Part shown: positions 12,109-25,393 of the stretch, piece by piece
Layout: each line of letters begins with the position of its first letter
How positions within the stretch are numbered: position 1 is the stretch's first letter
Source: Nocardioides marmorisolisilvae
GTDB taxonomy: Bacteria; Actinomycetota; Actinomycetes; Propionibacteriales; Nocardioidaceae
Direction of reading: 5' to 3'
Assembly (NCBI RefSeq): GCF_031656915.1
Contig: NZ_CP134227.1
Location: 744,001-808,000, forward strand
Length of the DNA stretch: 64,000 bases
Position numbers and translations under genes: made by a program
The notes under the pieces: generated by a model
Databases searched by the model: none
The model's input: only the letters and a program-made list of their open reading frames with translations
What the model was told of the DNA's origin: nothing

Positions 12109-13415
12109 CGGGCCGCGCCCGACCTTCCCGCGCCCGACGCCACCGGACCGATCAAGAGCTGCTGCCACGCGTTGCTGCCGAACACCGAGTCCAGACCTCC
12201 CTGTGAGCTCACCCTGACCCGACGGCCGTTGCCGGCGTAGGCCACTCCCGTACGGGCATCGTACGGGGCGACCCGGTACGCCGAAGACGTCGACGCGTCG
12301 AGCCCCGGTGCCATGTTCACGCCTCGTTGCTCGATGGGGTCGGACCCGGTGTAACCCGGCTGCGCCCGCGGGTCGGTGCACTTGGCCGGGAAGAGCGGCA
12401 GGTCGCGCAGGTCGTTCCCGTTCGGCCAGTCCTTAGCCGGCATGTAGCCCTGGGTGCACGGCGGTGTGGTGTAGGAGTACTGCATGTTGAGGTGCCCGTA
12501 GCCGTCGCCCGGGGTGCCGGTGAAGCCGTTGGAGACCACAGCGGGGAAGGTCACCAGGGTCTGCTCCAGGGCAGGCAACCGGGCGGTGACCACCTGGTTC
12601 ACCGTCACCAGGTTGCTGATGAAGACCGGCAGCACCGGCTCCAGGCCGGTGAGCAGGGAGTTGACCTCCCGCACCGCCGGGCCGCCGCCCTGCAGGATCG
12701 TGCGCAGCTGTGGGTCGGAGACCTTCAGCGTCTGGCTCAGCCGGGCCAGGCCGCGGGCGAACGACACGATGTCACCCTTGTGGGCCTGCTGGGTGCGGAG
12801 CACGTCCTTGCCGGAGTCGAGCAGCCTGATCGTGGCGTCCTGGTGCGCCCGCGCCTGTTGCACGAAGGTGCTCCCCGAGTCGACGATCCGGCCCAGGGCA
12901 TCGGCGTTGCCCTGGAAGACCTGCCCGAGCTCCTTGACGACCGAGCGCAGGTCGTTTCCGTTGACCGAGCTGACGAACCTGGACAGCTTCGTGAGCAGGT
13001 CGTTCGTCGACTCCGGGAGGCTCGCACGGGTGCCGACGAAGGTGTGGCCGGCGCCGGCGTACGGGCCCTGCGACGAAGGCGGCTCGAAGTCGAGGTACTG
13101 CTCGCCTACCGCAGTCAGGTTGTGCACCGAGAACGGCGAGTCCACTGGAATGTGGGTGCCCTGCGCTAGCGACAGGGTCGCCCGCACGCCGTCACGGGTG
13201 ACCTGCATGCCGGACACCTTGCCCACCTTCACGCCCCGGTAGTCGACCTCGCTGCCGACGTAGAGACCGCCGGAGCCGGGCAGGGTGGCATGCACGGTCA
13301 GCCCACGGCCGAGCACGCGGTCGACGATGCCGAGATAGCTGGCCGCGACGTAGACGATGCCCACGGCCGCGAGCAGCACGAAGGTGATCAGCCGGACCTT
13401 CACTCCCCGGGTCAT
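12105..13415 (-). CDS. mce4F: Mce-family substrate-binding protein, MceF position
   Basis: The 436-residue protein has an N-terminal membrane helix (about 8-28), an MCE/MlaD domain at about 38-115 with GSEVDYRGVKVGKV, and a long helical tail of about 200 residues. A Cys/Pro/Tyr-rich C-terminal segment (PPCTQGYMPAKDWP) is usual for MceF proteins. In Mce complexes six such chains form a tube carrying lipid between cell envelope and permease. The ATG at 13415 overlaps the mceE stop as ATGA. The mce4 type is inferred from the KstR operator ahead of the operon and from the neighbouring Rv3502c/Rv3503c-like genes. Confidence 0.88.
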   Translation of the reverse strand: MTRGVKVRLITFVLLAAVGIVYVAASYLGIVDRVLGRGLTVHATLPGSGGLYVGSEVDYRGVKVGKVSGMQVTRDGVRATLSLAQGTHIPVDSPFSVHNLTAVGEQYLDFEPPSSQGPYAGAGHTFVGTRASLPESTNDLLTKLSRFVSSVNGNDLRSVVKELGQVFQGNADALGRIVDSGSTFVQQARAHQDATIRLLDSGKDVLRTQQAHKGDIVSFARGLARLSQTLKVSDPQLRTILQGGGPAVREVNSLLTGLEPVLPVFISNLVTVNQVVTARLPALEQTLVTFPAVVSNGFTGTPGDGYGHLNMQYSYTTPPCTQGYMPAKDWPNGNDLRDLPLFPAKCTDPRAQPGYTGSDPIEQRGVNMAPGLDASTSSAYRVAPYDARTGVAYAGNGRRVRVSSQGGLDSVFGSNAWQQLLIGPVASGAGRSGAAR

Positions 13416-14788
13416 CGGCCACCTCCCAGCAGCCCGAGCAGGCCGCCGGACGGAGCCGACGACCCGAGACCGAGTCCGCCGAGCAGACCGCCTGACGACG
13501 ACCCGCTGCCCAGGCCGAGCCCGCCGAGGTCGATCCCCTTCAAGGGGTTGGACCGAGCCTTCGCGTGGGTCCTGATGCGCCGTGGCGTGCCCGATGTCGT
13601 GGTTGAGGCGCTGGACGCGGGCACCGGGGCGCAGAACAGGTTCACCTTGAGTGCGCTGCACAACGCCGACATCAGTTGGCCGCACGACTCCTGACCGGCG
13701 TAGACCGCACACAGCTGGCTGACGTTCGGCAGCCCCGTGTCACCGCCCTTGAGCGCTGCACTAAGGACCTTGTTGAGGTCGAAGTCCATCGCGAACAGTG
13801 CGTTCGAGTAGTCACCCTTGGCGAGTGACGCGGCCTCCTTGGGGAACGGGAAGCTCGCCATCATCATCACACCGCGGGGCAGGGAGTTGCCGGCATCGGC
13901 CAGCCGACGAAGCGTCGGCGCGAGATGGCGCAGTGTCCCCACGATGTTGGCCTTGCTGCGGTGGATCACCCGGGTGCCGACCCTCCCGAGCTCGTCGAGT
14001 GAGCGCAGCATCTTCATCAGAGCACCGTGCTGCTGGTTGAGCACCTTCAGCGCCGGCCCGAAGGAGTCGATGGCGGCGCCGACCGTCTTCTTCTCCCTGT
14101 TCAGGGTCGCTGTCAGCCGGTTGATCGACTCCATCGCGCTGATGATGTCGTCCTTCTGGCCGTCCAGCGAGGTAGCCAGCGCGTCGACCTGGCTGAGCAG
14201 GTCGCGGATGTCGGACTGTCGTCCGTCCATCATCTTGTTCAGCTCCGCGCTGATCGTCTTGAGCTGCCCGACGCCTCCGCCGGAGAGCAGGAACGACAGC
14301 GCGCCCAGCACCTCCTCCACCTCGGGGTTGCGAGTGGTGCGGGAGAGCGGGATGAAGGCACCGTCGGTCAACCGGCCGTCCTTCGCGACGCTCGCACCGG
14401 GCGGCTTCAGCAGCGCGATGTACTTCTCCCCCAGCAGGCTGGTCTGGCGTACGTCGGCCTCTGCGTTGCTCGGCAGCACGATGTCCTTGCGGACGGTCAT
14501 CGTCACGCGGGCGTGCCAGCCGACCCGACGGACCGAGTCGACCTGCCCGACCGGGACGTCGTTGGCCATCACCAGCGTGCGCGGCACCACGTTGACCACG
14601 TCGTTGAAGTCGGCGGTGACCTGGTAGCCGTCGGAGCTGCTCACCACCTTGCCGGGCAGAGGCAGGTCGTAGGCGCCGTGGAAGCCGCAGCCGCTCAGGG
14701 CCAGCGCACCCACGGCGGCGAGGATCACGAGGGTCCAGTGCGCCCGCGGTCGCGAGGCGACGGCTCGGCGAGGGGTCCTTCGTGTCAT
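13412..14788 (-). CDS. mce4E: Mce-family lipoprotein, MceE position
   Basis: This 458-residue Mce protein carries a lipoprotein signal: a hydrophobic stretch ending in LALSGC with Cys34 as the acylation site, as in LprN-type MceE proteins. The MCE domain follows (TADFNDVVNVVP..., about 55-130), then a helical coiled region, and a Gly/Ser/Leu-rich tail with repeated GLGLGS and GGLLG motifs. It anchors one chain of the hexameric lipid tube in the membrane. The ATG at 14788 overlaps the mceD stop by one base (TGATG); an in-frame GTG one codon earlier is equally possible. Confidence 0.88.
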   Translation of the reverse strand: MTRRTPRRAVASRPRAHWTLVILAAVGALALSGCGFHGAYDLPLPGKVVSSSDGYQVTADFNDVVNVVPRTLVMANDVPVGQVDSVRRVGWHARVTMTVRKDIVLPSNAEADVRQTSLLGEKYIALLKPPGASVAKDGRLTDGAFIPLSRTTRNPEVEEVLGALSFLLSGGGVGQLKTISAELNKMMDGRQSDIRDLLSQVDALATSLDGQKDDIISAMESINRLTATLNREKKTVGAAIDSFGPALKVLNQQHGALMKMLRSLDELGRVGTRVIHRSKANIVGTLRHLAPTLRRLADAGNSLPRGVMMMASFPFPKEAASLAKGDYSNALFAMDFDLNKVLSAALKGGDTGLPNVSQLCAVYAGQESCGQLMSALCSALKVNLFCAPVPASSASTTTSGTPRRIRTHAKARSNPLKGIDLGGLGLGSGSSSGGLLGGLGLGSSAPSGGLLGLLGGGR

Positions 14789-15948
14789 CACAGACCTCCC
14801 CCGAGCAGCCCGCCGAGCCCGTTCGCCGGGGCGGCCGCCCCCATCCCACTGGTGCCCGGGGTCGGCGCCGACAGCAGCCCGGCACCGAGATCGGCGGCGT
14901 TGGGCAGCAGCGCCTTGAGCAGGGTGCAGGCCTGGTCTGCGTTGGGCATGTGGTTGACCTGGACCACGTTGCAGATCATGTTGCCGAAGTCGAGCGCGGT
15001 CGGACCGAGCTGCAGTCGGATCCCGACGGTCCCGGTCTTCGGGTCGAACGCCTCGGCCAGGTTGCCCAGACCGAGCGGTGCCAGCGTGAGCACCTTCGCC
15101 AGGGTCTGCTTCTTGCGGGCCAGCACACCGACGGTGGTGGTGAGCTGCTTGATGTCGCCCACGAGCATGCCCTTGTTGTCGTGCACGAAGTTGCGCACCG
15201 TCGAGAGCGCGTTCGCGATCGCCACCAGTGCCTTGCGCAGGTCGCCTCGCTCACCGGCGAGCTGGGTCGAGGCCTGGGACAGGTGGTCCATGAACCGGCC
15301 GACCACCTTGTCGTTGGCCTGCAGGGTCTGGGTGACGGACGCCAGGCTGTCGACGGTGTCGAACAGCTGGCCGGAGTTGTCGCCGAGCGTCTGCACCGCG
15401 CCCGCCAGGTTGGCCAGCATCTGGTGTCCGAGCCTGCCGTTTCCCTTCAACGCGTGCGCACCCGACCGCAGCAGCTGGTTGAGTGCGCCGGACTTGTTCG
15501 CCCCGTTGGGGCCGAGCGCGTTGGTCAGGTCCGCGAGGCTGGAGTAGATCTGGTCGAGCTCGACCGGGACCGCGGTACGCGAGATCGGGATGTCGCCACC
15601 GTCGGGCAGCGTCGCGCCGCCGCCGTACGCCGGGGCCAGTTGCACGAACCGGTCCGCGACGAGCGTCGGGGTGACCACCGCTGCCTTCACGTCGGCCGGC
15701 AGCCGGTACTTCGCGTCGTACTCGATGTCGACCCTGACGCTGTCGCCCTCGGGCACGACGGCGGTGACGCGTCCCACCGGCACTCCCATGATGTCGACGT
15801 CGGTGCCCTTGTAGACGCTGACCGCCTGCGGGAAGTGGGCGGTGACGGTCCGGGTGCCGGAGCCGCCGGAGAACGCGAGGAAGCCGGCAACCACTGCGAG
15901 GGCGAGTACGACGGCGGCGAGGACACGACCGTTGATCCGGGAGAGCAT
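14788..15948 (-). CDS. mce4D: Mce-family protein, MceD position
   Basis: In this 386-residue protein an N-terminal membrane helix (about 8-27) is followed by the MCE domain with VYKGTDVDIMGVPVGRV (about 45-61) and ISRTAVPVELDQIY. A helical region and a Gly/Ala-rich tail ending in GLGGLLGGG come after. It is expected to be a transmembrane-anchored chain of the Mce hexamer. The ATG at 15948 overlaps the mceC stop in a TGATG junction; a GTG at 15951 is the alternative. Order and overlaps within the operon fit mceA-F exactly. Confidence 0.88.
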   Translation of the reverse strand: MLSRINGRVLAAVVLALAVVAGFLAFSGGSGTRTVTAHFPQAVSVYKGTDVDIMGVPVGRVTAVVPEGDSVRVDIEYDAKYRLPADVKAAVVTPTLVADRFVQLAPAYGGGATLPDGGDIPISRTAVPVELDQIYSSLADLTNALGPNGANKSGALNQLLRSGAHALKGNGRLGHQMLANLAGAVQTLGDNSGQLFDTVDSLASVTQTLQANDKVVGRFMDHLSQASTQLAGERGDLRKALVAIANALSTVRNFVHDNKGMLVGDIKQLTTTVGVLARKKQTLAKVLTLAPLGLGNLAEAFDPKTGTVGIRLQLGPTALDFGNMICNVVQVNHMPNADQACTLLKALLPNAADLGAGLLSAPTPGTSGMGAAAPANGLGGLLGGGL

Positions 15949-16931
15949 CACTTGTACGTCCTCTTCCCCGGCGCGAACTCACCGGTCGCGAGGTTCACCA
16001 GGTTCGGCACGTAGGCGTCGAACCAGGGGCCGGTCCCGATGATGTTGATCAGGATCGACGCGTAGGGACCGTAGTTCTTGATCGTGTCGCTCAGCTCCTG
16101 CTTGCGCTGGTTCAAGAACGTGAGGGCGCGGTGCAGCTCGTCGAGTGCCGGCCCGATCTGCTTCTGGTTGTCCGCGGCCAGTCCGCGCAGCTGTACGGCG
16201 AGCGTGCGGGCGTTGACCAAGAGCGAGTGGATGGCTGCGCGCCTGCGGATCAGCTCGCGGAACACCAGGTCGCCCTGCTTCATCAACGTGACCAGGTCGC
16301 CCTTGCGCTGGTCGATGAGGTGGGTGACGTGCTGGGCGTGGGTGAGGAGCGCGCTGATGTCACCGTCACGCGACGCGATCGTCCGGGACAGCCGCGAGAG
16401 ACCGGTGAAGCTCGACCGCACCTGCGGCGCCGCCGCGTCGATGGTCGTGGCAAGCGTGCTCAGCGCCTTCGAGAGCTGAGGCTTGTTGATCTTCTCGGTG
16501 GTGTGGGTCAGCTCGCCGAGCGTGCCCACGATGTCGTAGCCGGCACTGGTCCGGTCCAGCGGGATCGTCGAGCCGCCCGATAGCGTCCCCGACCCCTTCG
16601 GCACGAGTTGGAGGTACTTCTCACCGAGGAGGTTGAGCACCTGCACCGAGGCCGTCGTACGGTCCCCGAGCTCGGCGTGATGGACGTCGAAGTCGACCAC
16701 CACCTTGGTCCCCTCGACATGCAGCGCGTTCACGCGCCCCACGCGGATCCCGGCGATCTCGACGATGTTGCCGACGTGCAGCCCACTGGCGTCGGTGAGC
16801 TCGGCGTGGAAGCCGGTCCCCCGGAAGCCCGGGAACTTCTGCAGGTTGAACGAGGCGGCCATCGCCAGCGCCAGCACCAGCAGCGCGATGGCGCCCATCC
16901 TCATCAGGTGGCGGTCGGTACGGCGGGCCAT
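15948..16931 (-). CDS. mce4C: Mce-family protein, MceC position
   Basis: The 327-residue protein has a membrane helix at about 12-30, an MCE domain (ASGLHVGNIVEIAGIRVGRV, about 47-66), VLNLLGEKYLQLVPKGSG, and a helical tail without low-complexity extension. The family role is one chain of the lipid-transfer hexamer between YrbE permease and outer envelope. The ATG at 16931 overlaps the mceB stop (TGATG). The C-terminus ends shortly after GTGPWFDAYVPNLVN, a motif commonly found at the end of MceC proteins. Confidence 0.88.
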   Translation of the reverse strand: MARRTDRHLMRMGAIALLVLALAMAASFNLQKFPGFRGTGFHAELTDASGLHVGNIVEIAGIRVGRVNALHVEGTKVVVDFDVHHAELGDRTTASVQVLNLLGEKYLQLVPKGSGTLSGGSTIPLDRTSAGYDIVGTLGELTHTTEKINKPQLSKALSTLATTIDAAAPQVRSSFTGLSRLSRTIASRDGDISALLTHAQHVTHLIDQRKGDLVTLMKQGDLVFRELIRRRAAIHSLLVNARTLAVQLRGLAADNQKQIGPALDELHRALTFLNQRKQELSDTIKNYGPYASILINIIGTGPWFDAYVPNLVNLATGEFAPGKRTYK

Positions 16932-18034
16932 CAGTCGCACCTCTTGGCCGTGCTGTAGACCGACATGTTCTCGTTGATCTGCTGCTGGAGCTTGACCATC
17001 ATCTGGTCCAGCGGGGCTCCGGCGGCGCCGAGTCCGAGCAGCTGCCCGAGCTTGGGCAGGATCACCTTCCCGGTGAAGTCGCAGAGGTAGTAGTTGTACC
17101 AGGAGCCGAAGGTGCCGATCCTGGCCTGGCGACGAAGCGTCGTCGGCAGCCGCTTGAGGGTGTCCGACATCAGCTTCTGGTTGGCCGGTCGGTTCAGGAT
17201 GCTCATCACCCGGCGCAGCTGGGCGATGTCCTGCTTGGCGTAGGGGCGCGCGCCGGTGACGAGGCCGGCGACCTCATGGGTCAGGCTCGAGACGTTCTGC
17301 AGCGACGCCCCGATCGCCTTCCTGTCGGTGGAGAGGTGGCCGAGCCAGTCCCGCAGCTGGACGACGAGCCGGGTGAGCTGTTGATGCCGGTCGTCGACGG
17401 TCTTCAGGGTCCCGGAGAGGTTGGAGATCACCTCGCCGACGAGCTGGTCACGGTCCGCCAGTGCGTTGGTCAGCGATGCGGTCCGGGCCAGCAGTCCCTG
17501 GATCGTGCCGCCCTCGCCCTGCAGGACCCGCACGAGGTTCATCGACAGCTTGTTGACGTCGGCGGGGGTGAGTGCCTGGAACAGCGGCTGGAAGCCGTTG
17601 AAGAGCGCGGTGAGGTCCAGCGCCGGGGTGGTCTGCGACATCGGGATCGTCGCCCCCGGTCGGAGCCTCGGTGCTCCGGGCTTGCCCTGGGTGAGTGCCA
17701 GGTAGCGATCGCCGACCAGGTTGAGGAACCGCACCTGGGCGCCGGAGGCGGTGGTCATCGGCACTCCGGACTGGACCTTGAACGTCACGATCGCGTGGTC
17801 ACGGCCCTCGAGTGAGACGTCCTTGACCTCTCCGACCGAGACACCGGCGACGCGTACGTCATCGCCCTTCTTCAGCTCGCTCGCGCTCGAGAACAGCGCG
17901 TGGTACTGGCTCTGGCTGCCGAAGCCGAAGTGGCCCATGATCACCGCCAGCAGCCCCGTGACCAGGATCGACACCAGCGTGAAGATGCCCAGCTTGACCG
18001 CCGCGATCGCGGTCTTCGTGTTCCGCCCGCTCAT
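16931..18034 (-). CDS. mce4B: Mce-family protein, MceB position
   Basis: This 367-residue protein has a membrane helix at about 12-34 and an MCE domain with ELKKGDDVRVAGVSVGEV (about 52-69). VRFLNLVGDRYLAL and the MceB-typical helical region with VLQGEGGTIQGLLA follow. Near the C-terminus, SWYNYYLCDFTGKV matches the conserved WxNxYxC ending of MceB proteins. The ATG at 18034 overlaps the mceA stop as ATGA; a longer frame to 18133 lies inside mceA and is rejected. Confidence 0.88.
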   Translation of the reverse strand: MSGRNTKTAIAAVKLGIFTLVSILVTGLLAVIMGHFGFGSQSQYHALFSSASELKKGDDVRVAGVSVGEVKDVSLEGRDHAIVTFKVQSGVPMTTASGAQVRFLNLVGDRYLALTQGKPGAPRLRPGATIPMSQTTPALDLTALFNGFQPLFQALTPADVNKLSMNLVRVLQGEGGTIQGLLARTASLTNALADRDQLVGEVISNLSGTLKTVDDRHQQLTRLVVQLRDWLGHLSTDRKAIGASLQNVSSLTHEVAGLVTGARPYAKQDIAQLRRVMSILNRPANQKLMSDTLKRLPTTLRRQARIGTFGSWYNYYLCDFTGKVILPKLGQLLGLGAAGAPLDQMMVKLQQQINENMSVYSTAKRCD

Positions 18035-19170
18035 GGCGCGGTCCCCGGCGGGTTGTCCTGCGGCGTACCGTCCTTGAGGGGTACGTACGGCAGAGGTGGA
18101 CCCTGCTTGGGATGCGGCAGCCCGAGGCACCACGGCCCGTGCCCGACCTCGCCGTAGACCGGTCGGTCGGCGCGGCCGTACGCCGGGCGCTGGTCGCCGC
18201 TGAGGATCATGGTCTGGCTCACCCGGCTGTGCCGGAAGATCTGGTTGAGCCGGCCGGTGTAGCGGTCCAAGCCCTTGAGCAGGCAGGGGAACTCGGGAGA
18301 GTAGGTGTCCAGCAGCCCGGTCAACGGCACGGCCAGAGCGGCCTCCTCCTCGATCCCGGGGCCATTGCGGGACAGCACGCGGGTGGCGGTGTCGGACATC
18401 GTGGTCAGGTCGGTGAGGAAGCCGCCGAGCCTGGTCTGCTGGGTGGTGACGGTGTGCGCGGTGGTAGTCGCGTTGCGCAGCAGCCGGACCAGGTCGGGCG
18501 CAGCCAGCGAGTAGGTGTTCGCCACGTCGGCCAGCTCGCGCATGTCGGTGCGCAGCGTCGGCAGGTGGACGTTCATCGTGCGCAGGTAGGCGTCCAGCTC
18601 CTGCATCGTGCGGCCGATCTGGTTGCCGCGCCCGGTGAGCGCGGTGGCCAGCGCGTGCAGCGTCGTGTCCAGATCGGCCGGACGCACCGAACGCAGCAGC
18701 GGGAACAGCCTCGCCAGGATCGACTCGAGCTCGACACTGGTCTGCACCCGCGACGCCGGGATCACGGTGCCGTCGGTCAGCGGCTGGGCCGCAGGCACCT
18801 TGGGGTCGACGAACTCGACGTACTTCTGGCCGAACAGCGTGGTGGGCAGGATCTTCACCGACACGTTGTCCGGGATCTCCCTGGCCTGCGAGGGCTGCAG
18901 CCCGAGCTTGATCACCGCCTGATGGCCGTCCTGGGTGATCGACCGGATCTGGCCGACCAGCACCCCGTGCATTCGCACGTCGCCGAACCGCGCGAGCTGC
19001 AGACCGGCGCGATCGGCCTTGACCGTGACCATGGTGACGGGCGTGAAGACCTTCTGGTAGATCGCGATGGACAACCCGATCAGCAGCGCGACGACCGTGA
19101 GGTAGGCGACTCCGGCCACGAACAGTCGGGTGTGCTCGCGTCCCGTGTCGTGGGTGATGTTCACCAGCAT
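18031..19170 (-). CDS. mce4A: Mce-family protein, MceA position
   Basis: The 379-residue protein has a membrane helix at about 17-39 and an MCE domain (GDVRMHGVLVGQIRSI, about 63-78) followed by LPTTLFGQKYVEFVDP. A long helical domain and a Pro/Gly-rich tail end in DNPPGTAP. It is the first of six mce genes after the two permease genes, the invariant actinobacterial order. It starts 18 bp after the yrbEB stop. With the KstR operator upstream, uptake of cholesterol-like sterols is the best guess, by analogy with mycobacterial and rhodococcal Mce4. Confidence 0.88.
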   Translation of the reverse strand: MLVNITHDTGREHTRLFVAGVAYLTVVALLIGLSIAIYQKVFTPVTMVTVKADRAGLQLARFGDVRMHGVLVGQIRSITQDGHQAVIKLGLQPSQAREIPDNVSVKILPTTLFGQKYVEFVDPKVPAAQPLTDGTVIPASRVQTSVELESILARLFPLLRSVRPADLDTTLHALATALTGRGNQIGRTMQELDAYLRTMNVHLPTLRTDMRELADVANTYSLAAPDLVRLLRNATTTAHTVTTQQTRLGGFLTDLTTMSDTATRVLSRNGPGIEEEAALAVPLTGLLDTYSPEFPCLLKGLDRYTGRLNQIFRHSRVSQTMILSGDQRPAYGRADRPVYGEVGHGPWCLGLPHPKQGPPLPYVPLKDGTPQDNPPGTAP

Positions 19171-19188
19171 CGGCTCAGCCCCGCCCGC

Positions 19189-20028
19189 TCATCCGGTGAT
19201 CCGCACGGTGGTCGTCGAGCCCCAGATGGCGAAGCTGAGGAAGAAGTCGGCCACAACCACAGTGACGATCGAGGTCCGGATCGCCCTGCCGACGGCCATC
19301 CCGACGCCAGCCGGGCCACCCGACGCGGTGTAGCCGTAGTAGCAGTGGATCAAGATGATGGCCACCGCGAGCACGATCAGCTTGCCGAACGACCACAGCA
19401 CGTCGCCGGGTGGCAGGAACTGGATGAAGTAGTGATCGTAGGTGCCTGGCGACTGGTGGTAGATCAGTGTGGTGATCAGCCGCGGCGAGAGGTACGACGC
19501 GCACAGCGCCACGATGTAGAGCGGGATCACCGCGAGGAACGCCGCGATCATCCGCGTGGTGACCAGGAACGGCAGCGACGGGATGCCCATCACCTCGAGG
19601 GCGTCGATCTCCTCGCTGATCCGCATCGCACCCAGGCGCGCGGTGTAGCCGCAGCCGACGGTCGCGGCCAGCGCGATCGAGGACACCAGCGGGGCCACCT
19701 CACGGGTGTTGAAGTAGGCGGAGATGAACGCGGTGAACTTCGCGACGCCGATCTGGCTCAGTGATGCGTAGCCCTGGATGCCGACCTCGGTCCCGGCGAA
19801 GAACGCCAGGAACGCGATCACGCCGACGGTGCCGGCGATCACGGACAGGCCACCCACCCCGAACGCGACCTCGGCCAGGGTGGCCCAGATCTCGCGGCGG
19901 TACCGGCGCACCGCTCGCGGGGTCCAGGCCAGTGCCTTGGCGTAGAAGAGCAGTTGGTCGCCGTACTGCTCGATGCGGTAGCGCTGCTCCTTGACGAGGG
20001 CGGCGCCGACCTCGGTCACCTGTGCCAT
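19189..20028 (-). CDS. yrbE4B: YrbEB/MlaE-type permease of the mce4-like importer
   Basis: The 279-residue MlaE-family integral membrane protein has about five to six hydrophobic helices and the ATPase-coupling segment RISEEIDALEVMGIPSLPFL near 145-164. The C-terminal HCYYGYTASGGPAGVGMAV resembles the M. tuberculosis YrbE4B version of this stretch. It pairs with YrbEA to form the transmembrane part of an ABC-type lipid importer. One base separates it from the yrbEA stop. The cognate ATPase (MceG/Mkl) is not in the window. Confidence 0.9.
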   Translation of the reverse strand: MAQVTEVGAALVKEQRYRIEQYGDQLLFYAKALAWTPRAVRRYRREIWATLAEVAFGVGGLSVIAGTVGVIAFLAFFAGTEVGIQGYASLSQIGVAKFTAFISAYFNTREVAPLVSSIALAATVGCGYTARLGAMRISEEIDALEVMGIPSLPFLVTTRMIAAFLAVIPLYIVALCASYLSPRLITTLIYHQSPGTYDHYFIQFLPPGDVLWSFGKLIVLAVAIILIHCYYGYTASGGPAGVGMAVGRAIRTSIVTVVVADFFLSFAIWGSTTTVRITG

Positions 20029-20029
20029 C

Positions 20030-20830
20030 TCACAGCCCGTTCTGCGGGACGACCTGGAAGTAGATCGCCGTCAGGATCGAGTTGAGCAGGAACAGCAGCA
20101 TGAACGCGACGATCACGGACTCGTTCACGGCGCGCCCCACACCACTGGGCCCGCCGCCGGCGTTGAGGCCCTTGTAGGCACCGACGACCGCAGCCAGGAA
20201 GCCGAAGATCCCGGCCTTGATCATCGAGATGTAGAGGTCCGGGAGCGTGGCAAGCGCGGTGAACGACGATAGGAACGCGCCGGCGGAGCCGCCCTGGACG
20301 ATGACGGTGAAGAAGTAGCCGCCACCGATGCCGGCGGCGATCACGATTCCGTTGATCATCAGCGCGACGAAGAGGGTGGCCAGCACGCGTGGCACGACCA
20401 GGCGGGCGATCGGGTCGACGCCGAGCACCTCCATCGCGTCGATCTCCTCACGGATCTTCCGAGCCCCCAGGTCCGAGCAGATCGCCGAGCCGGCGGCACC
20501 GGCGATGATCAGTGCCGCTGCGATCGGCGCCGCCTCGCGCACCACGGCGAGGACCGCGGTCGCGCCGGCGAACGACTGGGCTCCGAGCTGACCGGTCAGG
20601 TTGCCCACCTGCAGCGAGATGACGGCACCGAACGGGATCGACACCAAGATGGTGGGCATCAGCGTCACGCTGGTGATGAACCAGGCCTGCTCGATGAACT
20701 CCCGGGCCTGGAACTTCGTAGTGAAGGCCGCCTTGGTGACGTCGACCACCATTGCGGCAATCTCCCCCGGCCCACGAACGACAGAAGCAGCGGAGACTGC
20801 CACTCCTACCCCCTTCGATGGCAGGGCCAA
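20030..20830 (-). CDS. yrbE4A: YrbEA/MlaE-type permease of the mce4-like importer
   Basis: The 266-residue MlaE-family permease has the coupling motif RKIREEIDAMEVLGVDPI (about 128-145) and five or more membrane helices. The C-terminal KGLNAGGGPSGVGRAVNESV is diagnostic of the family. It is the first gene of the mce4-like operon. The listed start is a TTG at 20830, which leaves about 31 bp to the KstR operator; a GTG at 20803 is an alternative because the family's first 20 residues vary. It forms the membrane channel with YrbEB and is presumably repressed by KstR. Confidence 0.88.
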   Translation of the reverse strand: MALPSKGVGVAVSAASVVRGPGEIAAMVVDVTKAAFTTKFQAREFIEQAWFITSVTLMPTILVSIPFGAVISLQVGNLTGQLGAQSFAGATAVLAVVREAAPIAAALIIAGAAGSAICSDLGARKIREEIDAMEVLGVDPIARLVVPRVLATLFVALMINGIVIAAGIGGGYFFTVIVQGGSAGAFLSSFTALATLPDLYISMIKAGIFGFLAAVVGAYKGLNAGGGPSGVGRAVNESVIVAFMLLFLLNSILTAIYFQVVPQNGL

Positions 20831-20970: not shown

Positions 20971-21645
20971 GTGTCCCGAACCCAGAACCCCCTCACCCAG
21001 CGCCTCGAGCGGCACCCCTCGGCGGCACTCCTGCTGGCCCAGCTGCTGGCCGTGGTCCTCAGTCCGTTCTTCGGCGACCACGGCGCGGGCAAGGCCGTCC
21101 TGGGAGTCGTGTCGACCCTGGTCGTCGGGACCGCACTCTACGCGGTACGGCGGACCCCGGCGCTCACCGTGGTCGCCCTCTGCCTCGGCGTGCCCGCGAT
21201 CCTCTTCGTCGTCCTCGAGGCGATTCACCCGCACTCGGACTGGATCGTGTTGACCAACGCGCTTCTCCACGCGCCGTTCTACTTCTTCGTCTCCTACGGC
21301 CTGATCCGGTACCTCTATGACGACGACCGGGTCAGCACCGACGAGCTCTACGCGGTCGGCGCGGCCTTCACGGTGGTCGCCTGGGGCTTCGCCTACCTCT
21401 ATGTCGCCGTGCAGGTGGTGTGGCCCGGTTCGTTCTCAGGTCCGGGTCCGGGTCCCTACTCGTGGTTCGTGCTGCTCTTCTTGTCGTTCTCGAACCTGAC
21501 CAGCTGCGGGCTCTCCGACGTCCTGCCGGCGTTGGGCCAGGCGCGCGCGGTGATGATCATCGAGCAGGTGACCGGCGTCCTGTACATCGGAATGGTGATC
21601 TCCCGGTTGGTCGGCCTCGCCGTGCGGCGCAGCCAGGTGCCGTGA
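20971..21645 (+). CDS. Two-pore-helix ion-channel-like membrane protein with unusual filter
   Basis: The 224 residues contain about five or six hydrophobic helices. The last third has the layout of an Ion_trans_2 pore: helix, pore loop, filter, helix. The loop reads SWFVLLFLSFSNLTSCGLSD (about 164-183) and is followed by EQVTGVLYIGMVISRLVGLAV. Bacterial two-TM potassium channels have TLGYGD or TVGYGD where this protein has TSCGLSD, so potassium selectivity is doubtful. It may be a channel with changed selectivity or a relative no longer used as a channel. GTG start, leaderless promoter, three bases from the uvrB stop on the other strand. Confidence 0.65.
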   Translation: MSRTQNPLTQRLERHPSAALLLAQLLAVVLSPFFGDHGAGKAVLGVVSTLVVGTALYAVRRTPALTVVALCLGVPAILFVVLEAIHPHSDWIVLTNALLHAPFYFFVSYGLIRYLYDDDRVSTDELYAVGAAFTVVAWGFAYLYVAVQVVWPGSFSGPGPGPYSWFVLLFLSFSNLTSCGLSDVLPALGQARAVMIIEQVTGVLYIGMVISRLVGLAVRRSQVP

Positions 21646-21648
21646 CCC

Positions 21649-23772
21649 CTAGCGGGTCGCCTCGATCATCTGGCGGAGCTCCTTCTTCAGCTCGGAGATC
21701 TCGTCGCGCAACCGGGCCGCCACCTCGAACTGCAGCTCCGCGGCGGCCGCGTGCATCTGCTCGGTGAGCTGCTGCACCAGCTCGGCGAGATCGCTGGACG
21801 GCAGTCCGGCCAGGTCCGGAGCGGTGCGGCGGGCGTCCAGCTTCGACAGGCCGGGAACCGGCGCCTTCTTCGATCGGTCGCCGCGCGCACCGGTGCCCTG
21901 CCAGGTGGCGAGCAGCTCCTCAGTGGTCTCGTCCTCACGAGCCAGCATCTCGGTGATGTCGGCGATCTTCTTGCGCAGTGGCTGCGGGTCGACCCCGTGA
22001 GCCTGGTTGTAGGCGACCTGCTTGACGCGCCGCCGGTTGGTCTCGTCGATAGCCGAGGCCATGCTCGGCGTGATCCGGTCGGCGTACATCACCACCTGGC
22101 CGGACACGTTGCGCGCGGCCCGGCCGATCGTCTGGATCAGCGACTTGTCCGACCGCAGGAAGCCCTCCTTGTCGGCGTCGAGGATCGCCACCAGAGAGAC
22201 CTCGGGCAGGTCCAGGCCCTCCCGGAGCAGGTTGATGCCGACCAGCACGTCGTACTCCCCGAGCCGGAGGTCGCGCAGCAGCTCGATCCGCTTCAGGGTG
22301 TCCACCTCGGAGTGCAGGTAGCGACACCGGACGCCGTTCTCGAGGAGATAGTCGGTGAGGTCCTCCGACATCTTCTTGGTCAGTGTGGTCACCAGCACCC
22401 GCTCGTTGCGCTCGACCCGGGTGTTGATCTCGTCGATGAGGTCGTCGATCTGCCCCTTGGTCGGCTTCACGATCACCTCCGGGTCGACCAGTCCGGTCGG
22501 TCGGATGATCTGCTCGACGGCGTGGTCGAACCCACCGGTCTTGGCCAGCTCGTAGTCCCCCGGTGTCGCGGACAGGTAGATGGTCTGGCCGATCCGGTCG
22601 AGGAACTCCTCCCACTTCAACGGGCGGTTGTCCATCGCACTGGGCAGCCGGAACCCGAAGTCGACCAGGTTGCGCTTGCGCGACATGTCGCCCTCGTACA
22701 TCCCGCCGATCTGCGGGACGGCGACGTGCGACTCGTCGACGACCAGGAGGAAGTCCTCGGGGAAGTAGTCGAGCAGGCAGTTGGGTGCACTCCCCCGGCT
22801 GCGCCCGTCGATGTGCATCGAGTAGTTCTCGATCCCGGAGCAGGAGCCGACCTGGCGCATCATCTCCACGTCGTACGTCGTGCGCATCCGCAGCCGCTGC
22901 GCCTCCAGCAGCTTGCCCTGGCGCTCGAACGCAGCGACCTGCTCCTCGAGCTCGGCCTCGATGCCCCGGATGGCGCGCTCCATCCGCTCGGGGCCGGCGA
23001 CGTAGTGGGTGGCCGGGAAGACGTAGAGCTCCTCGTCGTCGGTGATCACCTCGCCGGTGATCGGGTGCAGCGTCATCAACCGCTCGACCTCGTCGCCGAA
23101 GAACTCGACCCGGACCGCGTGCTCCTCGTAGACCGGGAAGATCTCGAGGGTGTCGCCGCGGACCCGGAAGGTGCCGCGGGTGAACGCGAGGTCGTTGCGG
23201 GTGTACTGGATCTCCACGAGCCGGCGCAGCACGGAGTCACGGTCGTGCTCCTGGCCCACCCGCAGGCGGAGCATCCGGTCGACGTACTCCTGGGGGGTGC
23301 CGAGACCGTAGATGCAGGACACGGTCGAGACCACGATGACGTCGCGACGGGTCAACAGCGAGTTGGTCGCGGAGTGCCGGAGCCGCTCGACCTCGTCGTT
23401 GATCGAGGAGTCCTTCTCGATGTAGGTGTCGGTCTGCGGGACGTAGGCCTCGGGCTGGTAGTAGTCGTAGTAGGAGACGAAGTACTCCACCGCGTTGTTC
23501 GGCATCAGCTGGCGCAGCTCGTTGGCGAACTGGGCGGCAAGCGTCTTGTTGGGCTGCATCACGAGCATCGGGCGCTGGAGCTGCTCGGCCACCCAGGCGA
23601 CGGTCGCGGTCTTGCCGGTACCGGTGGCGCCGAGCAGCACAATGTCCTGGACGCCGCCCTCGACGCGCTGGGTGATCTCGGCGATGGCGGCCGGCTGGTC
23701 GCCCGAAGGCACGTAGTCGGAGATGACCTCGAACGGCGCCACCCGGCGCTCGAGGTCGGTCACGGGACGCAT
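21649..23772 (-). CDS. uvrB: Excinuclease ABC subunit B
   Basis: UvrB is the damage-verifying helicase-like subunit of nucleotide excision repair. The 707-residue protein has Walker A GATGTGKT at 48-55, and the DNA-clamping beta-hairpin region with [21 protein letters not shown] near 100-120. The DEAD-like DESH box and helicase motifs such as QTIGRAARN follow, with a C-terminal UVR motif ([21 protein letters not shown]) that contacts UvrC. The length is normal for actinobacteria. The ATG at 23772 is preceded by TAGTCT six bases upstream, a leaderless arrangement. Confidence 0.98.

Positions 23773-24148: not shown

Positions 24149-25393
<1,245 letters not shown>

Follow-up and report, generated by a model that had tools for sequence, protein, structure and literature searches.

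A family of six-helix channel-fold proteins from several bacterial phyla carries Gly-Leu-Ser-Asp (GLSD) in the selectivity filter, where its canonical relatives carry GYGD or GFGD. The member described here is encoded at positions 20971 to 21645 of the window, a stretch of 64,000 nucleotides (G000:C1:744001-808000) from the single-contig, 4.23 Mb genome of Nocardioides marmorisolisilvae. The preferred reading of its product, given a probability of about one half, is a stand-alone, presumably homotetrameric cation channel that is not voltage-gated, its outer filter rebuilt and its selectivity for K+ reduced; that it conducts is our inference. Since a family across several phyla shares the variant filter, it appears to be a maintained design rather than the mark of a broken gene. 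Altered filters are already known singly, in NirBac, NaKTs, NaK and TbIRK. In the open-licence literature, no paper combines 'selectivity filter' with GLSD, spellings of the motif lead to no channel paper as judged by title and start of abstract, and no earlier description of a GLSD family was found.

The gene and its surroundings

The reading frame is open throughout, begins with GTG and encodes 224 amino acids. The closest named relatives of the protein come from Nocardioides-type actinobacteria. The gene and its immediate neighbours are as follows.

20030..20830, minus strand: MlaE/YrbE-type permease, first gene of an mce-type operon, divergent neighbour, context only (ORF list and domain scan)
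20971..21645, plus strand: channel-fold gene, six transmembrane helices and a pore loop (ORF, Pfam, genome search, model)
21649..23772, minus strand: uvrB, convergent neighbour, context only (ORF list and domain scan)

The channel gene appears to be a unit of its own, because it is flanked by an mce-type operon and uvrB, both on the opposite strand, with the 3' end of uvrB three bases from its own end. The mce-type lipid-uptake operon lies at 13412-20830 (minus strand). Two MlaE/YrbE permeases and one Mce protein in it were confirmed by domain scan; the remaining genes we take, by look alone, to be Mce genes. At 24149-25393 (plus strand) the window also encodes a phospholipase-D/cardiolipin-synthase-like protein (244.2 bits against an NCBIfam cut-off of 290).

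A search of the whole genome finds the channel-fold gene in single copy. Besides it, Ion_trans_2 matches a single further protein there (E up to 0.1), which has two transmembrane helices, the filter TTGYGD and a long downstream region, presumably an RCK domain to judge by its look.

Gene order was compared at 72 loci with flanks of at most 4 kb. Of 25 Nocardioides-type loci, 19 retain UvrB and/or YrbE/Mce neighbours, 7 of them with both; none of the 47 other loci has either within these flanks, which are short enough that absence is not proof. No neighbour gene is shared among 11 representative loci, compared by their ORF lists, and three annotated plasmid loci from Pseudomonadota, in which the neighbours of the family gene are unrelated. 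No recurrent neighbour was seen, and therefore no function can be read from gene context. PADLOC gave no defence-system match to the gene.

Fold and domain architecture

A sequence-only reading had described a channel fold with TSCGLSD in place of the potassium filter. The motif is present at residues 177-183, and Pfam, profile and structural model agree on the fold. Ion_trans_2 (PF07885) is the only Pfam domain above cut-off and covers residues 134-215 (24.4 bits, cut-off 22.5); a weak acyltransferase match falls below its threshold (15.6 bits, cut-off 31). The structural work rests on A3, an alignment of 54 rows drawn from the window and from retrieved loci: 40 rows belong to the family and 14 to canonical relatives. 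All 54 match PF07885 individually at E 0.01. The AlphaFold monomer model built on A3 has a mean pLDDT of 93.7 and a pTM of 0.89. Its helices comprise a short N-terminal one (residues 7-14), five transmembrane helices (16-34, 38-59, 63-85, 90-117 and 123-150), a pore helix (165-176) and a last transmembrane helix (189-222). The same early reading had aligned the protein with two-transmembrane channels; the six helices of the model rule such a channel out. The elements of the gene are given below.

21016..21321, plus strand: four N-terminal helices (residues 16-34, 38-59, 63-85, 90-117), with a single Arg in S4 (model, charge count)
21337..21420, plus strand: S5 (residues 123-150), with the family hallmark F-T-x-x-A-W-G-F-A (profile, model)
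21463..21498, plus strand: pore helix (residues 165-176), with Leu171 at the place of KcsA Trp68 (KcsA alignment, column counts, model)
21499..21519, plus strand: variant selectivity filter T-S-C-G-L-S-D (residues 177-183; sequence, column counts)
21535..21636, plus strand: S6 (residues 189-222), with Gly202 and Arg212 (model, column counts)

The relation to solved K+ channel pores is clearest at the level of profiles. The A3 profile, to which the 14 canonical rows contribute, matches KirBac3.1 (E 2.5e-09), KCNK1 (TWIK-1; 1.2e-08) and KcsA (3e-07), and SthK as well. The single sequence aligns weakly with KcsA in phmmer (residues 155-222, E 0.1), placing TSCGLSD on TVGYGD. The modelled pore module superposes on KirBac3.1 (2wlj_A) with Z 9.2 and rmsd 2.2 over 102 residues at 21 percent identity, a Z near 9 being common for helical proteins. 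Foldseek alone finds no match in the PDB below E 0.001; the top whole-chain matches, at E 0.006 or weaker, are hERG (the best, E 0.0059), GORK and SthK.

The protein ends at residue 224, in the model two residues past S6. Model and Pfam give no cytoplasmic domain after S6, neither a Kir domain nor a cyclic-nucleotide-binding domain. Of 114 members, 28 have no Arg or Lys in S4, 85 have one and a single member has two; the window protein has one. A voltage sensor is ruled out, as S4 lacks a row of Arg or Lys in all 114.

Extent of the family

Membership was assigned with A1, a family profile of 20 rows that include the window protein, at a threshold of 200 bits. The window protein scores 307.5 bits, its filter fits G(L/I/M)(S/G/A)D and its S5 carries F-T-x-x-A-W-G-F-A, the three marks of the family. 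In the surveyed phyla, members score above 230 bits and other proteins far lower. Counts that each include the centre genome, chosen for the gene, are 6 of 296 genomes in Actinomycetota (next score 49.8 bits), 9 of 349 in Pseudomonadota (110 bits), 1 of 201 in Chloroflexota (73 bits) and 2 of 198 in the phylum of a Desulfobulbaceae member (102 bits). Record titles place further members in Chloroflexota, Thermodesulfobacteriota, Myxococcota and Pseudomonadota. In a scan of viral contigs, A1 matched three stretches, none of them a confirmed relative.

Within the taxonomic family of the window, 178 of 294 genomes match at E 0.001, a few of them weakly (E about 1e-4); this excludes chance for the window protein. 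In its genus, 13 of 24 genomes have a member above 200 bits, and one more, G060, has a C-terminal piece alone. Nocardioides-type bacteria thus often carry the gene, whereas its occurrence elsewhere is sporadic. Of the family member, the piece in G060 (L242, G060:C7:655533-655715) retains roughly 60 C-terminal residues with the pore and S6; its open frame has 96 amino acids, and it looks like a remnant.

For this taxonomic family, the locus counts draw on DNA from 115 of the 178 matching genomes (30 + 80 + 5), the other 63, such as the weak G266 and G287, being left out. The 223 loci above 200 bits give 184 distinct domain sequences. Two fragments fall below the threshold and are excluded, L242 (SSTGLSD, 101.5 bits) and L248 at a contig end (TSVGLSD, 83 bits); L073, with 31 residues matched, is likewise kept out of the 184.

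Filter and pore-helix residues

The filter tetrad is GLSD in 172 of the 184 distinct members. The remainder read GLGD (4), GIGD (3), GLAD (2), GISD (1) and GMSD (1), and one is cut by a contig end. A GYG or GFG filter occurs in none of them, so the TxGYG/TxGFG signature of K+ channels is absent. The conservation check proposed at the outset thus comes out in favour of a conserved variant, and the ordinary filters that would have spoken against it are missing from the family. At the place of KcsA Thr75, the site-4 threonine, members have Ser (154), Ala (13), Gly (12) or Asn (5) and never Thr. The Val76 place is held by Val (103), Thr (76), Leu (4) or, in the window protein alone, Cys. The sequence-only reading had stressed this Cys along with the missing Tyr-Gly pair: loss of the Tyr and change of the second Gly are family-wide, but Cys179 is private (1 of 184). 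By these counts, Leu and Ser are the family trait and Cys a change of the window protein. A second peculiarity is Val at residue 167, where 178 of 184 members have Glu or Asp.

The earlier view that the gene is not decayed holds up: the frame is intact, the fold confidently modelled and the same altered filter present in homologues of several phyla. That TSCGLSD is a single aberrant or decaying sequence has a negligible chance, for while Cys179 and Val167 are indeed private, GLSD in 172 of 184 members rules this out for Leu and Ser, and the open frame and a pLDDT of 93.7 argue against decay.

A closer comparison sets 114 members against 58 relatives, these 'canonical' 58 including single GAVD, GGGD and GMGD filters. 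The site-4 Thr is found in no member (S, A, G or N instead) and in 50 relatives; Tyr or Phe at the filter place in no member and in 55 relatives; the second Gly in 8 members and in 57 relatives. The three exceptional relatives, L170, L197 and L213, have the lone filters TTLGAVD, TTTGGGD and TTVGMGD among otherwise canonical six-helix channels. Among the 114 members, the first filter Gly, the Asp, pore-helix Ser172 and Gly202 of S6 are invariant where present; Gly202 and Arg212 each occur in all 112 that reach so far. Leu181 and Ser182 are among the better conserved columns: their entropies are 0.26 and 0.49 bits, the mean being 1.49, and just 24 and 37 columns lie lower. The derived filter of the family reads T/S-S/A/G/N-V/T/L-G-L/I/M-S/G/A-D. 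Throughout the family, just two elements of the K+ signature survive, its first Gly and its final Asp.

The surroundings of the filter differ too. An aromatic belt of Trp67, Trp68 and Tyr78 is described around the KcsA filter (PMC6328603). Leu occupies the Trp68 place in 107 of 114 members and in 2 of 58 relatives; the other 56 relatives have Phe or Tyr there. Belt and Tyr changes are both clade-wide, and their coupling would be confounded by ancestry. Nor is it strict, because three members with GLSD have Phe at residue 171, three have Val, and two relatives combine Leu with GYG.

Evolutionary history of the filter

A maximum-likelihood tree was computed with the seven filter columns removed. 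It holds 45 members, thinned by identity from the 114, and 58 relatives, taken from 95 other proteins (above 40 bits, at least 150 residues, rows with AFSPTD filters set aside). A branch supported at 100/100 separates all family members from the relatives. Their closest neighbours carry TTTGYGD (97/80 together with the family), followed by rows with TSTGFGD (99/89, a group of 49 rows). Ordinary filters start outside the clade alone, with none inside it.

Over all rows of the tree, the pattern of aromatic and aliphatic residues at the Tyr place requires four changes. These are read as one change on the family branch and three in the single relatives with GAVD, GGGD and GMGD, so the filter aromatic would have been lost once, at the base of the family. 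Within the family, the distribution of Ser or Ala and of Gly at the second-Gly place requires five changes, and at least four of these are forced by well-supported branches. They are counted without direction (Gly to Ser or the reverse), the root within the family being unsure. Given the repeated swaps, Ser and Gly look exchangeable in the family setting, which fits a pore that still works.

Proposed function and alternatives

The proposed channel may be summarized in steps. (i) The gene product would be one subunit of a presumed homotetramer in a six-helix branch of the Ion_trans_2 superfamily. (ii) The inner half of the filter may still coordinate cations, as in NaK with its S3- and S4-equivalent sites only. 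(iii) The outer half would be remodelled. (iv) The pore would pass monovalent cations, with weaker discrimination between K+ and Na+ than in GYGD relatives. (v) The conductance may be a leak or modulated by lipid or tension, because there is no S4 charge array, ligand domain or recurrent partner gene. Because the first Gly and the Asp never vary and the pore module is retained, the loop is taken to be in use. The loss of Thr75, Tyr78 and usually Gly79 implies that the four-site arrangement of a K+ filter has not survived unaltered. Precedent comes from NaK (TVGDG), reported as having an intact inner half, a changed outer half and two ion sites, and as non-selective (PMC8689586), and from the bacterial NirBac1.1 and 1.2, reported as non-selective with altered loops (PMC4607889).

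A more novel reading, which we hold tentatively and with somewhat less than even odds, is a leucine-packed filter of its own kind. The Tyr and the aromatic belt would have been replaced once, after which the second Gly became freely exchangeable with Ser, giving a working pore whose ion sites resemble neither the four of K+ filters nor the two of NaK.

The channel may instead still be K+-selective, Leu and Ser holding the outer-filter backbone well enough, so that the motif would be an ordinary K+ filter written in unfamiliar letters. We regard this as unlikely, though by some way the best of the alternatives. The invariant first Gly and Asp, the GLGD (4 of 184) and GIGD (3 of 184) members so close to GYGD, and the Ser/Gly interchange on the tree all suit it. 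TWIK-1 chains are among the best profile matches, and the second loop of this channel, as we take it, reads GLG. TbIRK is described as preferring K+ over Na+ more than 7-fold without the signature (PMC5429665), and because of this, motif loss need not mean loss of selectivity, by analogy a point against the weakened-selectivity reading. Set against these are the differences from relatives at three filter places and in the aromatic belt, and the lack of GYG or GFG in all 184 members.

A pore that does not conduct, its channel fold serving as sensor, scaffold or assembly partner, is improbable. hERG G628S, with Ser at the second-Gly place, is reported to reach the membrane and not conduct normally (PMC11974032), and the site-4 Thr is missing in 184 of 184 members. 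A dead pore, however, has little reason to keep the first Gly, Asp, Ser172 and Gly202 invariant, and neither a conserved partner gene nor a soluble domain was seen. The genome's other Ion_trans_2 protein, with two transmembrane helices and TTGYGD, is an unlikely heteromer partner. Among the sequence arguments, the repeated Ser/Gly exchange within the clade speaks most strongly against a pore that is silent.

Still more doubtful is a filter with a preference of its own, for instance for Na+, NH4+ or a larger organic cation. A new motif fixed over deep divergence does suggest a positive function and not mere loosening. Na+ and Ca2+ channel filters, however, carry an added acidic residue; the family filter gains none, and the gene contexts showed no recurring partner for transport or metabolism.

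Comparison with known channels

The weakly selective channel proposed here is most like the GYGD/GFGD six-helix Ion_trans_2 channels, most of whose chain is alignable with the family profile (104-124 bits). Its nearest six-helix rows, L159 and L161 (TTTGYGD) and L108 and L160 (TSTGFGD), group with the family at 99/89 and, unlike it, keep Tyr or Phe and the second Gly. KirBac and NirBac share the pore module and S6 with the window protein, but have a cytoplasmic Kir domain, which it lacks. NirBac is a precedent for a channel clade that changed its filter and became non-selective; its hosts as named are Anaeromyxobacter strains and Gemmatimonas aurantiaca, and the NirBac2.1 loop, TTGTD, is unlike GLSD (PMC4607889). 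NaKTs of Tsukamurella paurometabola is likewise an actinobacterial, K+-channel-like pore with an unusual filter, LPMGNGPLSP, and reported as non-selective (PMC5052707). It differs in having two transmembrane helices and a Pro-rich filter, and its authors state that they found no other such channel (PMC5052707); the GLSD motif, by contrast, marks a whole family spread over several phyla. NaK, CNG and HCN channels also keep the first Gly and have an altered outer filter, with two ion sites described for NaK (PMC8689586). The NaK filter letters differ (TVGDG), and the cyclic-nucleotide domain of CNG, HCN and SthK is absent here. The likeness to hERG G628S lies in the Ser at the second-Gly place; that, however, is one mutation in a canonical filter, whereas in the natural filter of the family Leu and an altered aromatic belt accompany the Ser.

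DUF1345-like pore-loop proteins with AFSPTD filters, such as L124, have a channel-like pore helix and S6 and no K+ signature, but are separate from the family (28-38 bits with its profile). Rows of the type A-(F/L)-S-P-(T/S)-D came from the Actinomycetota, Chloroflexota and Pseudomonadota searches (L124, L131, L178, L182, L183, L187, L189-L192, L195, L196, L198 and L199) and would form a second channel-like group without the K+ signature; the match of L124 to DUF1345 is weak (25.3 bits, cut-off 31.8). Pore-loop proteins with (F/V/I/L)TLG(L/M)GD filters and frames of 309-420 amino acids were also seen (L129, L130, L133, L185, L188, L193, L194, L200 and L229), with a long part after S6 in both of the two that were read.

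Significance

Few motifs are known to be as conserved as the K+ signature, and much of the knowledge of its tolerance comes from mutants. Among alignable proteins there is now a natural series, from GYGD/GFGD through GLGD/GIGD to GLSD, in which Ser and Gly swap repeatedly. With this series one can ask directly which positions of the filter govern selectivity, which ones merely support the scaffold, and whether a second-position Ser, silencing in hERG, can conduct in a rebuilt scaffold.
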